A DNA stretch of 64,000 bases from assembly GCA_964006375.1 (NCBI GenBank), contig OZ023265.1, positions 171,059,156 through 171,123,155 of the forward strand, given 5' to 3'. The notes beneath the pieces were generated by a model that did not search any database, had not been told where the DNA came from, and was given only the letters and a program-made list of their open reading frames with translations. The first letter of the stretch is position 1; each line of letters starts with the position of its first letter. Below are positions 16,901-33,690 of the stretch, in pieces. A program made the position numbers and the translations under genes. Source of the stretch: Tillus elongatus. Its lineage: Eukaryota; Arthropoda; Insecta; Coleoptera; Cleridae.

Positions 16901-19900
16901 CTTACATAAAATCTATAGATGGAGCTGATAACTATTTTTATATAGGTACAATGGGTGGAGAACCGGTGTCTGGGGATATTAAAAAAGAAAAGGGAAATTT
17001 TTACTGTTTGGAATCAAACAAAGAAGTTAGAAAACATCTTACAAAAATTGGTATTTCCAATGGACTAGCTTGGAGTGCAGATCAAACCAAATTCTATTAC
17101 ATAGACTCTCATAAATACACAGTGGAACAATATAACTATGATGCAAAGGCTGGTAAGATCTGTAAGTATTTCATTTATAACTTTCTTGCAGGGAATATAT
17201 GGCCTGTAATATGAAAGGATGCTTGATGCTTTATTCCTGTAATGTAAATTTTTTTAATACAAATTTCTTTTACCATGCAATTAGTGTACTAGGCATTTCT
17301 CGATACAACTTCCGTTACATCCTACACAGTATGCTGTACCACATCTGTTTTTCTCTCGTATTATCTATTTACAATAGAACGCATTTAGTGTATCTTTCTC
17401 TGCCTAGAAGAATATTGTGATAGAATTTTGCCTGTAATAGATCTTTCCGGTATTACGATTTCTCGTTTGGCATCAATATTATGCTAGACAAATATTTTAA
17501 CAGTGGACGAAGTTAGTACCCGTATCCCGTACAATCACATTTCGGTAGGATGGCTTGCAGTTAAAATAAATATACATTACAATATATTTGTCGGTATTAC
17601 ACATTATTTTAATATCTCTTTCCTGTACTATATACTTCTTTTATGATAAATTATATGGACCCCTTAAGATTGTACACAGCATAGATATATACAGCAGGGT
17701 CACTCTATTATCTTCACTTTGAGGTTCATTCAGACACTTTTCTTATCTGCAAATGGTTCTGCCACTTGCCGATTTTATTACCCTATTGTAAATACATCAT
17801 CTGGTACAAATTTCAACTCTGATTGAGGGTGTTCCTCCACAGAACCGTCTTTAAAATTCGATAGGCTTAAGTTGGATCCTAAATAGGTAGGGTAAGGTGG
17901 AGCACAATGCTACAAAAAAAAACGACAATGTAGCGACAAAAATACCGATTTAATCAACTTGTGATTGGTATGGATATAAACTATAACAGTCTCTCTTTAC
18001 TTAAAATAATTTAAACATTACTGTTATTAACTTCAGTTTAATTTAAACTGCACTTTAATCTATTGTAACATTAAGCCCCGTATCTGCGGCACTCTGTTAC
18101 AAGGCAAGAGGCACAATGTTACAGAATTAAAATAATAGAAAAAATAACAATTAAAGAAAATATAAACGTTTCTAACAAATATTAAATTTCTTTATACTAA
18201 TCTTTGGGAACGTATAGACATCTGGCTGACGTTTGGTCTTTCTTGCTGCAACGTTTACAAGAGGGAGCACAATTTTAATATCCTCTAACGATACTGTCGC
18301 CATATCCGGTTCAAGAGGGAAGTAGAAATTATGATCAACTTTTCCACTGCTACGTAAATAGCTGACGTCATATTCATTATCCTTAATATTTGTCAGTAAT
18401 TTTCCAACATAATGCTTGACTAGTTGTTTTCCAACAAATTTAACGAAAACAAAATCTTTTTTTTTTCGATTTTGCGAGAAACTTTAACGGAACTTCGTCT
18501 TTAGATAATAAATCGTCAGACGAGAATATCGGGATGTTTTCTAAATCACTCTCCGAGTCATCAGTAAATATAACTCTTTTGATAGTTTCAGTTGTCTTGG
18601 TTTTTTTGCCAGGAATTCCTTTTTTTTTTGTGACACTTCCTTTTCCTTTCCCTTTCCCAAATTTTTATTTTCTCTTTCCAATGCTTCTCGTTCAATTTCA
18701 TTCTTATCGGTGTTTCAGCTGGAATGCACCTTTTTCCTCTATTTCTAACGCGGTTAGAGGGTAGTCTTGGTTGTGCTTTTGGATACTTAAACATTGTGCC
18801 ACTTTTAGGTTCGTAACATCTTGAATCTAAGGTTTGTTAAATTTCAGCTAACCCAAAAACCATTTTTACCCTGAAGAAACATAATATTCCTGGTTTGCCC
18901 GATGGTATGGCAATTGATACCGATGGAAACTTGTGGGTTGCAATCTTCAACGGTTCTCGAATCATCAAAATAGACCCTAGAAAACCAGAAACTCTACTTG
19001 AGACCATACCCATTCCAGCAAAACAGGTAAAGATATGAGTTAAGATTGGAACCTGTGATGATAAGTATAAGTACAATTGTAGAACCCAATTCATCACAAT
19101 ACAGTTTTTTGGCCTGACGATCGTTTCGTTAACAAAGATAGGGTCATCAGAGGATGAATAAACTACTAAGTTTTCATTCCTCTGACGACGCTAACTTTGT
19201 TAGCGAAACGATCGTCAGGTCTAAAAACTGTAATGTGATTAATTGGGTTATCCAAATTGTACTTCTCAGGTAAAGATATATTTAAAGTTTAGTTTGTTGG
19301 ATGATTAACAGTAGATGTTTTTAATTAGATTGGAATAACCTGATGTAAAAACCATTGTAACGATAGATAGATACGTTTTAAAATTTTATTATGGTAGGTA
19401 CTTATGCAGAAATATATAAAACAATGTCAGAATAACTTGACGCAACTCCAAAATTGAAAACTATCATTATTACTTTACATATTTGAACGACTTCAAAAAA
19501 GTAGTATGTTCTATGTTCATCTGTATGCATTTTTTTATGTATGTTCACCGATATTTTCGTAAATTGGGGACCAATTTTATAAAATCTAAAAAAGGATATA
19601 CCCCTGAGGTGGTCCCATTTTCACCAAGTCAGGATCTGATGATGGGATCTCAGGGAAATCGAGGGAAATCCTCTTATAATCTATATAACTTAAACTTTTG
19701 CTGTAATACGGCATTTTGATTATATTATAGCAGTTTTCTGATACCGTACTCACTACGTACGTAAATTTGCAACATTTACACTGGAAGGTGAACCGATCTA
19801 AAAGATTTTTAGGTAACCGTAACGTACAATAGTAGTAGTAGTAGTAGCTATTTTAGGCCTACTTCGATTATTTAAAGATAACCCAGTCAATCAATCTAAG

Positions 19901-22900
19901 TTTCAAATTTGGTATTATCTATTAACAATTTAACCCGCTAGGGATGAGACAAATGTTTATGTAAAGAACTCAGCGAAGACATGATTAATCTTAATGGCTA
20001 AGCAAAGACAAATTTAAGGAGTTATTGAATCAGTTATAAATAATAATCACCTAATACTTACGGTGATGTTAGTCTTGAACAGAATCTAATATTTGTAAGA
20101 CTTTCAGTAAAAAACGCTGGTTCTCGATAGCAGTTGGTGAATAAGGGTATCTAGATAATATTTTCTTCAAAATACGGAAATTGTACTTGTGGGAACTAAT
20201 TTGAGGAATTGATGTTAAATAAAAAGCAGAAGTATAACACAAATATACATTCTTTATTCAATGGTAATAGTGAAGATTTTGCATTTATGCAGCATCATGT
20301 AAGAAATATTTATAGGTATACATATGTCACCAAATTATTGGTAAGTGGACATACAGGAAAAGAGAAAAATATTACTGGTGATAAAATCAATATCAATTTA
20401 ATTACTCTTTCTGGCCAGATCGGTTTGCATGATTTATCAGAGTTGTAATAAGTTACAAAGCCTTATCATTGCCCATCACCGTCCTTCATTTTACTAAAAT
20501 ATTATTGGAAAATCCATTTCAAATAGACCCCCTTTCTGATGATTTTGCAGTATTTTCAGCTATAGACTTTATGGTTCGATAGTCTATATTTTAGAAAATT
20601 TTCCTGGACTTATGAATTTCGAAAAGATGTCTTCAAATGAGCGCGAACTAGAACCCTTAAAATTTATATACGTAAGTTTCAGTTTTTGTCTATTTACACA
20701 TATACAGGGTGACGCATTTCTAAGGTTAAACTCAATATTTTTGTTTATATACTAGATACGAGCAAAACTTGTATACGTTAATTGGGTGTTTTGAACAGTA
20801 TCTCATAAAGTTATTTTTATAATCACAGGCTGGCCCATAAGTCGCTGGTGATACACACTTTCTTTTTTAACAGAATACCATTTATTGCATTTTTGAATTT
20901 TCCATTGAATTAAAATCCATCTTTTTAAGGAGAAAAAAATGATATCGTTTATATTTTTGAAGTTATTTCAATTGCTTTGAAACTTTTCACGGTTTTGGTT
21001 TTGCGGTTTATTTGATAAACCATTTAATTTGGTATAATATGCATACAGAATATAAAATACAATAGTGAAATTGAAAACTATACATAAACTTTTATAACCT
21101 ACAGCTACCGTGCCTTCTAACTTCTACATCCTTGGAATAGAGTAGCTCTGACATGACATTGACATATATGGGACAAATGACAATCGAACTGACAGTGACA
21201 GTAGAATTATTTGTTAGTGGGTCAACATTTGGCACATTGTACAAACAGATATCACAACTTTTAAAAAGGCGTTTATACCGATAGAGAGATGAATCCCATA
21301 GAAATGACACATTCAGAGAGCTTTTTATTTGTGTTACTCGTCGAAAAAATCGAGCTGCCGTATACAATATTCTAAGCCTGTCTCTTTAGCCCAACTAGAT
21401 GAGGATCACAGACTCATGGAGGGCTCTATCTCCGTGGATCTCAAAAAAATATTAGACTGGGGAAGTAGAAATCTTGTACAATTCAACCCCACCAAATCAC
21501 AGTCTTGCTTTCTTTCTAAGAGATACACCAGCCCTGGACCCATCACAATAAAGAACCAAGTTATTCAAAGTAAAGAGTCCTTTTCACTTGTTGGCATCTC
21601 TGTGGATCGCAATCTCAATTGGCACCAACATGTCACATCAATTGCAGAAGCGGCTGCTAGGAAATTAGGTTTCCTCTTCCGGGCTCGCAAATACTTTTCA
21701 CCAGCTAATCTCTATACTTTATATACTTCACAAATAAGACCAAACCTCGAATACTGCTCCCACATTTGGGGTGCTGCTGCCGCTTCTACACTTGCTATCC
21801 TGGACTCCATTCAGAAGAGAGCTATACGTCTCATCGGTGATCCTACCCTCACCCAAAGGCTGCCATCTCTTGCCCACCGACGTGCCGTTGGTGACCTCTC
21901 TCTCTTTTATAGGTATCTGCACGGGCACTGCTCAGAGGAGCTTTCTTCCATAGTTCCTCCACCTGCTGCCCCCAACAGATCTACCAGGGGAACAGAGCGA
22001 ATGCACCTTTTTACTGTCCAGGTGACCAGACATAGAACATCTTGCTATGCCCGCTCTTTTGTCCCGAGGACTTCCAAGTTGTGGAACTCCTTGCCGGCAC
22101 ACGTTTTTCCTTCTCCCCCGAACCTCCAAACCTTCAAGTCCAGAATTAACAAGTTGCCTCTTTCCTCCTTGTCGACACCCACGGTACGATAGTATTTAGG
22201 CTGTAAGCCCTCGTGGTGTATTATTGAAATTAAAAAAAAATACAGGCACTCTCAAATAGTGGCTGAATTTGAAAAGTTTTGTTTTCAGTGTTCCATATAA
22301 ATCATTTTTTATAACATTTTTGTGAAATATTGGTAATTAATAATAAATGTTTAGTAGGTTATTGTTAATAATATTTGTCGAATTCTTTTGAAAAATATAA
22401 TATAGTGTAACGTTACTGAAGGCAATTTCGGCCAAAAAATGGTGAATTTTTGTAAAATAAATGTTTGCAAAATTTCGTTATTTTTTTTTACTTGGGTCAT
22501 AAAGCTGTTTGTCAATAATTATATCTAACCAGTTGCGTAAATGGCTTGAAGAGGTTCGTTGGCCAGAAAAATCAGTTTTTTGTGGAACATTTTAAGTTTA
22601 TTATTGGGAAATGTTTGTACTTTTTAAAACAACAAAGCTATTTTACTGAAATATGGTACATTGTTATTACTATATAGGTTATACTGCCAACCAAATGTCC
22701 CTTAAAAAATATTTGACATTATTACTGTGATAATAAATTAAGCCTTAATTTTCAAGAAATGTACATATCTTCCAACTATGTAAACGGATCCTCTTTTTCA
22801 GACTACTTCAGTAGCTTTTGGTGGTCCAAATCTGGATGAGATCTATGTTACCTCAGCATCTATAGCCCTCAAAGGAGTGGACCTCCCGCCCCCAGATCAT

Positions 22901-33521: not shown

Positions 33522-33539
33522 TTAAATACATTTAGTAAG

Positions 33540-33690
33540 TAGACTTGGAGAAACCCAAATCACAGAATTTGTCTTCCTCTGAAGATGTTGACTTTGTCAA
33601 CGAAACGATCGTAAGGTCTCTGAAATAAGTGTTGTGGTGATTTGGGTTTCTCCAAGTGTACTTATTAGTGCTCATTACAGGTTCCAGTTT
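33540..33690 (+). repeat. Penelope-type end (family A)
   Basis: Outer inverted pieces CTTGGAGAAACCCAAATCAC (33544-33563) and GTGATTTGGGTTTCTCCAAG (33637-33656) bracket a hammerhead-like core. Downstream TACTTATTAGTGCTCATTAC is shared with 24.9-25.1 kb. Confidence 0.6.
33576..33616 (+). ncRNA. hammerhead-ribozyme-like motif, family A
   Basis: CCT/AGG stem I, CTGAAGA core (33579-33585), extra T, stem II GTTGAC-TTT-GTCAAC (33587-33601), GAAA (33602-33605), palindromic stem III ACGATCGT, cleavage-site nucleotide A33613. Compared with 19179-19219, two stem II base pairs are changed on both sides (GCTAAC/GTTAGC to GTTGAC/GTCAAC), so the fold is kept. Confidence 0.6.

Follow-up and report, generated by a model that had tools for sequence, protein, structure and literature searches.

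Hammerhead ribozymes in Penelope-like elements (PLEs), the inverted pseudo-long terminal repeats (pseudo-LTRs) of these elements and their tails, and the small hammerhead-bearing repeats called retrozymes are all already known. As far as the available text of each report goes, minimal PLE hammerheads lie in the pseudo-LTR, have a weak or missing stem III, and have been proposed to act as dimers (Cervera and de la Pena 2014; Lunse et al. 2017); the Poseidon PLE of the lizard Anolis also has a hammerhead in its pseudo-LTR, with two adjacent reverse transcriptase (RT) start sites explaining the tail, and cleaves and extends both strands (Frangieh et al. 2024, PMC11167929); and Penelope of the rotifer Adineta vaga has inverted head-to-head pseudo-LTRs, an optional 31-bp tail on one of them, target site duplications (TSDs) of 8-10 bp, and palindromes at the inverted junctions, which were read as self-priming, the word "hammerhead" being absent from the main text (Arkhipova et al. 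2013, PMC3846280). Metazoan non-LTR retrozymes are tandem units with a type I hammerhead and TSDs, and the available text names PLEs, on other grounds than those given below, as a strong candidate for their mobiliser (Cervera and de la Pena 2020, PMC7229834). Here we compare with these systems a 64,000-nt stretch of the beetle Tillus elongatus (Coleoptera: Cleridae; contig OZ023265.1, forward-strand positions 171,059,156 to 171,123,155, from the 1.72-Gb, 30-contig assembly GCA_964006375.1), called the window below, which contains copies of two hammerhead families: A, with head-to-head, one-tailed pseudo-LTRs much like those just described, and B, a retrozyme-like repeat.

Our reading, to which we would give a probability of about 0.8, is that family A consists of type I hammerheads in the pseudo-LTR of an abundant PLE whose RNA self-cleaves in vivo; that cut and uncut RNAs both serve as templates, with priming on two strands and joining of the resulting cDNAs at the RNA 5' end; and that family B is probably moved likewise.

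Hammerhead motifs and the element that carries them

An earlier sequence-only reading of the window had proposed two hammerhead-like motifs, and both are there with complete core boxes. Divided by box, the motif at 19179-19219 reads CCT-CTGACGA-C-GCTAAC-TTT-GTTAGC-GAAA-CGATCG-TC-AGG and that at 33576-33616 reads CCT-CTGAAGA-T-GTTGAC-TTT-GTCAAC-GAAA-CGATCG-TA-AGG, each 41 nt long. At the sequence level both have the CUGANGA and GAAA boxes, the NUH cleavage triplet and the three helices of a type I hammerhead. Two features had gone unmentioned: after A9 and before stem II each motif has one additional nucleotide, a C in the 19 kb copy and a T in the 33 kb copy, and the minus strand at 19113-19153 has a third hammerhead, now decayed, through which the 19 kb copy becomes palindromic (inverted arms 19077-19154 and 19178-19255, 87% complementary). 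Stem III can pair only between two copies, or with a very small loop; its palindromic sequence, together with tandem open copies 3079 bp apart, makes action as a dimer plausible, if unproven.

For the pattern CTGANGA-N10-30-GAAA the window has 14 matches where 3.19 are expected, and none of 100 shuffles gave as many as 14; three matches belong to family A and four to family B. A hammerhead pattern search of viral contigs gave no matches. A viroid hammerhead reportedly has an extra core nucleotide between A9 and helix II. Family A is like it in having the extra nucleotide after A9 (de la Pena and Flores 2001), but that is a viroid RNA and not a retroelement. The same nucleotide sets family A apart from the minimal PLE hammerheads as presented in the available text (Cervera and de la Pena 2014; Lunse et al. 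2017).

The stem II change between the two motifs, with pairing kept, had been taken in the sequence-only reading as a sign of selection in the source elements, and it is borne out as a difference between subfamilies, not a coincidence of two copies. With the 19 kb copy as query 40 of 5193 first-look candidates were scored, and with the 33 kb copy 40 of 1781. Among the 119 family A copies counted (without L048, the window's own copy, and L010, a near-duplicate of L009 that was also left out of the head-to-head counts), 45 retain the whole core, all six pairs of stem II and UH: 17 with GCTAAC/GTTAGC, 22 with GTTGAC/GTCAAC, and six others. The motifs of the two subfamilies, A-I (19 kb) and A-II (33 kb), differ at 7 of 41 positions, of which three (N7, the extra nucleotide and H17) are permissive sites and four form two doubly compensated stem II pairs. 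Since only 231 of 2,000,000 random seven-base variants kept the core and all helices, and the changes are confined to compensated pairs and permissive sites, selection appears to have acted on the fold in source elements, while single copies decay.

To judge from its sequence context, the family A repeat is the pseudo-LTR of an abundant PLE. Longer A-II copies supplied three open stretches, two of which match GIY-YIG (E 5.2e-07 and 9.7e-07). Searched against the genome, one of these gave 48,530 first-look candidates; of the 150 scored, many form minus-plus pairs and some are tandem copies spaced 3079 bp apart, the longest open frame reaching 829 aa. In one tandem stretch (L108), whose arm is 97.5% identical to A-II, the hammerhead core is at 1233, the tail end at 1353, and an open frame runs from 1360 to 3699, the end of the fetched sequence, with matches to RVT_1 (E 2e-13) and GIY-YIG (E 8.8e-07). 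The Penelope-like source suggested by the sequence-only reading is supported here, the hammerhead lying directly before the RT/GIY-YIG frame. Along a tandem copy, the TATA box is followed by the presumed cap site, the hammerhead, the cDNA start site S1, a ~34-nt tail, S2, and the RT plus GIY-YIG frame. A single open reading frame (ORF) with RT and GIY-YIG, pseudo-LTRs both tandem and inverted, a tail and a TSD are all features by which PLEs are recognized, and all are found. A PDB sequence search with the PLE frame gave no matches.

L108 comes from a tandem PLE array in the same assembly (C2:103627261-103642775), in which four open frames of 792 aa recur every 3079 bp and one copy is inverted. 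Within the window, the reverse transcriptase remnant of a subfamily A-III copy contains a 257-bp tandem repeat of 2.8 units at 23222-23949, in which residues ~239-305 are repeated.

Insertion anatomy and junctions near the cleavage site

Head-to-head family A copies were compared at 54 loci: 38 A-I, 15 A-II, and the 19 kb copy of the window. At 52 of these, the two arms differ in where they end: the untailed arm near S1 (GTGTACTTA), the tailed arm at S2, the end of the tail. The exceptions are L031, with both arms tailed, and L025, which was paired by the script with a neighbouring copy and whose own pair is one-tailed. The A-II sample derives from a tailed query and the A-I query has one tail, so that tail-less loci are underrepresented, a bias that does not account for the near absence of a second tail. 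The TSD score exceeds the 99% point of mismatched flank pairs at 40 of the 54 loci, with lengths of 8 to 16 bp (12 or 13 in 25 of the 40). The A-III copy has a decayed TSD outside both arms, AATCACATGCATTA versus AATCACACATTA (by eye).

The A-I copies compared have a common layout and similar length. At 16 of 30 A-II loci there is a second, inverted A-II arm within ~1.5 kb, the other loci not being head-to-head, and the arm spacings (16, 29, 37, 283, 314, 353, 704, 868, 1269, 1276, 1361 and 1389 nt) are so varied that many of the head-to-head structures must have formed separately. The arm comparison gave 0.159 within loci and 0.167 between them, arms within a locus being slightly more alike (permutation P 0.005; 39 aligned, with L010 outside the statistics), a gap too small to decide by which route the palindromes form.

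At first view the 19 kb and 33 kb copies resembled Tc1/mariner miniature inverted-repeat transposable elements (MITEs) with TA duplications, a reading given up in view of the 8-16 bp TSDs and the one-sided tail. At one further locus (L069:1368-1620) an A-III and an A-II copy are tail-to-tail, 13 bp apart, possibly two insertions into one target.

The upstream ends of the arms fall into classes. Of 46 arms measured at A-II loci (two of them from another subfamily), 19 extend upstream by at least 250 nt, another 19 end between -13 and -16 relative to the core, and the remaining 8 have their ends elsewhere. Position -14 is 31 nt after TATAAATA, a TATA box, and is presumed to be the cap site; palindromes centred at the -13 to -16 stop occur at 30 places. 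If the hammerhead cut the RNA before it was copied, arms should instead begin at AGG. Palindromes with both arms reaching AGG and 0-8 bases between them were found at seven places, and a reversed control pattern at none. Judged by eye, the arm type is that of L108 at six of them and mixed at one (L112); the TSD score is above the 99% null in five, below it in L112, and L115 is unpairable. In the TSD-scored set, all 10 pairable loci have one tailed and one untailed arm.

A search without a fixed centre, in which the two arms of a palindrome of the active arm type could be 0-30 bases apart (N{0,30}), gave 42 places, at 20 of which at least one arm ends at the scissile position; 23 of the 84 arm ends are exactly there, against 4 and 3 at the neighbouring positions. 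Where the junction has neither microhomology nor overlap (n=20), the count is 10 of 40. For longer cores (N{31,60}), 43 of 45 places were tabulated, omitting C1:158256205 (a repeated tandem) and C6:44217075 (already in the first set). Over both sets, 85 palindromic junctions, 25 of 170 arm ends are exactly at the predicted cleavage site; the mean over the fifteen other positions from 3 to 18 is 4.3 of 170, with 4 and 5 at the adjacent ones. The Poisson P is 8e-12 if all ends are independent and 5e-5 if only the 15 distinct junction types, counted by hand, are. The mismatch tolerance was a rule of our own, slightly different between the 42-place and combined tabulations. A scan of A-I around the cleavage site found four places, one with an arm ending there (by eye). 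These scars at the junctions of new insertions suggest that the RNA is cut in living cells and that, once cut, it is converted back into DNA.

A retrozyme-like repeat in the same window

Family B, the second hammerhead family of the window (CTGANGAGCTCTAATTAGAGCGAAACCGGTC), was not mentioned in the sequence-only reading. The Rfam model Hammerhead_HH9 picks it up at three places with E values from 0.0003 to 0.0088, all short of the gathering score. Its unit is tandem, 311 nt long with a GC content of 0.418, the consensus being from 7 of 14 units (the anchor word is absent from the other 7). A tandem unit of 150-450 bp, a type I hammerhead and a TSD longer than 4 bp, three features by which metazoan retrozymes are recognized, are all found in B, which is in these respects like the non-LTR retrozymes described in the available text of PMC7229834. 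It differs from them in that 26 of 34 clusters, found with a query that is itself head-to-head, are head-to-head with two preferred end sites; the word "inverted" is absent from the main text of that study.

Among the 34 family B clusters, seven have a TSD score that exceeds the 99% null (L102 was dropped as overlapping L083). Of the 26 head-to-head clusters, 15 have both ends at 282-293 or 149-158, with one end at each in 13 of these; the remaining 11 have at least one end elsewhere. This footprint resembles that of S1 and S2 in family A, with ~174 nt between the sites as opposed to ~34. No clear sequence similarity of B to the PLE stretch was found (best E 0.28). The likeness of footprint makes PLE-type machinery the probable mobiliser of family B.

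L101 and L104, two family B tandem arrays (1360 and 1361 bp, both among the seven with high TSD scores), are on different contigs with reverse-complementary 8-bp TSDs, and may be one insertion that was duplicated. In the window, the family B copy at the A-III junction (24545-25062) has no TSD of its own that could be found; it could be a nested insertion that has undergone loss, or have come from a cDNA that was joined to one of the PLE. The 47 kb copy contains an LTR element (47901-54369) with a 1739-aa open frame and identical 425-bp LTRs (47901-48325 and 53945-54369), the identity implying very recent insertion. Its open frame suggests that it is BEL/Pao-like. Another open frame, at 30449-30919, has what we take to be a PD-D type endonuclease-like motif, reminiscent of R2-type elements. 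Coordinates of the family A and B copies are collected in Table 1.

Table 1. Hammerhead-bearing repeats and associated duplications in the window, in order of position.
Feature	Position	Strand	Remarks
Exact repeat TAGTGTGGTGAA	1251-1262 and 1903-1914		Read as TSD by eye; automatic score missed it
Family B head-to-head copy	1263-1902	.	Hammerheads 1293-1333 (-) and 1663-1703 (+)
Fragment of family A arm	3145-3207	-	
TSD CAGGTAAAGATAT of 19 kb copy	Left 19024-19036, right 19267-19279	.	13 bp
Subfamily A-I head-to-head palindromic pseudo-LTR copy	19037-19266	.	Tail on left arm only; delimited by its ends and 13-bp TSD
Second, outward-facing hammerhead of 19 kb palindrome	19113-19153	-	Stem II decayed
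Hammerhead, core complete, extra C after A9	19179-19219	+	Predicted cleavage after C19216
Subfamily A-III Penelope-like element copy	23120-25062	+	Interrupted by family B copy
Parts of A-III copy	23120-23221 (inverted arm); 23308-24484 (RT ORF remnant); 24929-25062 (tailed arm)	-; +; +	
Family B copy inside or joined to A-III copy	24545-24927	.	Hammerhead 24735-24775 (-)
Broken hammerhead in tailed A-III arm	24940-24980		
TSD TAAATACATTTAGT of 33 kb A-II copy	33523-33536 and 33699-33712		
Subfamily A-II pseudo-LTR copy	33537-33698	+	Short inverted left arm, tailed right arm
Hammerhead, core complete, extra T after A9	33576-33616	+	Predicted cleavage after A33613
Exact repeat GTACAAGGTA	47475-47484 and 54546-54555		Read as TSD by eye
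Family B head-to-head copy, first part	47485-47900	.	Hammerheads 47518-47558 (-, decayed) and 47833-47873 (+)
Second part of 47 kb family B copy	54370-54545	+	Split off by LTR element
Family B hammerhead, core changed to AAAA	60489-60529	+	Partial copy

Proposed mechanism and alternatives

From the observed arm ends, TSDs, tail asymmetry and pile-ups, we infer that the ribozyme cuts in vivo and cut RNA is reverse-transcribed, with priming on two strands and joining of the products. PLE RNA would be transcribed from a promoter within the pseudo-LTR, and the hammerhead would cut part of it, either unaided, as a dimer where transcripts are tandem, or assisted by protein (such assistance in hammerhead cleavage is reported in the available text on Poseidon, PMC11167929). 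Cut and uncut RNAs could then both act as templates. The PLE protein would cut both target strands, each of which would prime one cDNA, at S1 or at S2; both cDNAs would run off the RNA 5' end, whether capped or cut, and be joined there. Stem II may be under selection in source elements because cleavage is important to the element's cycle. The more specific combination of asymmetric two-ended PLE insertion on hammerhead-cut or capped RNA, a hammerhead that sets many template 5' ends in vivo, and retrozymes inserted by the same kind of machinery we would put at even odds.

A number of results weigh against our reading. Rfam, searched up to E = 10 with short stretches included, gives no hammerhead model for either A motif, literally the outcome that the sequence-only reading had named as speaking against itself; we judge that the missing match reflects the extra nucleotide and the loopless stem III and not the absence of a ribozyme. 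Structure prediction of monomer and dimer, also proposed there, did not come out in its favor: neither single A motif has a hammerhead as its minimum-energy fold, and cofolding two copies in ViennaRNA yields no double hammerhead. Most family A copies (74 of 119) are no longer complete hammerheads, as is expected of dead insertions. At 9 of the 42 N{0,30} places there is one common junction with 2-nt microhomology, so that the arm ends are not all independent; it also occurs in L117 and L119, of another subtype and on other contigs, and of these two L117 alone has a TSD score exceeding the null. Of the 86 arm ends from longer cores, only 2 coincide with the cleavage site. A second pile-up (16 of 170) at position 19 coincides with the 8-nt stem III palindrome ACGATCGT, where two cDNA ends can pair, indicating that sequence homology also sets junctions. 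From the older arm type came four N{0,30} places: two have the recurrent junction, with one arm at the site, the other two have the stem III palindrome at their centre, and at none do both arms end at the cleavage site. A +12 control pattern had no matches, but it used the older arm type and so is unmatched to the active one; a family B scan, of low power, had one match, away from its cleavage site. Finally, the available text on Poseidon (Frangieh et al. 2024, PMC11167929) reports that insertion in vitro persisted in hammerhead mutants, that unprocessed RNA was the main substrate in vitro, that no RNA reads ended at the hammerhead site, and that no difference in start site was found between the strands; here, by contrast, there is a pile-up at junctions, and arms pair as S1 with S2 at 52 of 54 loci.

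That the likeness to hammerheads is due to chance seems very improbable. The missing Rfam match and the single-motif folds could be cited for it, but this is a conserved family with compensated pairs and otherwise changes at permissive sites only, and it lies in the pseudo-LTR, where published PLEs carry hammerheads (PMC11167929, available text). The hammerheads might instead be genuine, with the excess of arm ends left by reverse transcriptase stopping at the folded ribozyme and not by cleaved RNA. Arm ends are indeed also spread throughout the hammerhead, and insertion of uncleaved RNA in vitro is on record for a published PLE (same source). By our own argument, however, an enzyme arriving from the 3' side would meet stem I before copying AGG, while the excess sits after AGG, at the scissile bond, sharply so (25 ends against 4 and 5 on either side), and we consider such stopping unlikely as the source of the excess.

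The head-to-head structure itself could have arisen otherwise than by priming on both strands. Self-priming on antisense RNA, proposed for the rotifer Penelope in the available text of PMC3846280, would fit the palindromic centres and the slightly greater likeness of arms within loci (0.159 against 0.167, permutation P 0.005). Snapback alone would not yield one S1 and one S2 arm, as at 52 of 54 loci, and the purified lizard PLE cuts and extends both strands (PMC11167929, available text); we regard self-priming as somewhat unlikely, with perhaps one chance in five. It is also conceivable that palindromes are copied as finished units, by a fold-back or MITE-like element, and not made anew at each insertion, as the single layout and similar length of A-I copies and the one junction recurring at nine places might suggest. 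This we find distinctly unlikely, a shade more so than enzyme stopping, given that A-II spacings range from 16 to 1389 nt, that the recurrent junction is shared with another subtype on other contigs (L117/L119), and that TSDs of 8-16 bp have no fixed transposase length.

No report of PLE junctions at a hammerhead site, of S1/S2 pairing counts, or of a head-to-head retrozyme footprint was found in the open-access literature searched, outside which the main PLE hammerhead papers lie; this is weak evidence of novelty. If the more specific combination given above is right, genomic junctions would read out ribozyme activity without RNA data. As to the role of hammerheads in PLEs, the junction pile-up at the scissile position is evidence for cleavage in living cells and for cleaved RNA re-entering the genome. 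Such junctions can be counted in any PLE-bearing genome, which would make the hammerhead question testable across animals, and a comparable footprint in retrozyme-like repeats would give retrozymes a structural link to PLE machinery, beyond their co-occurrence.

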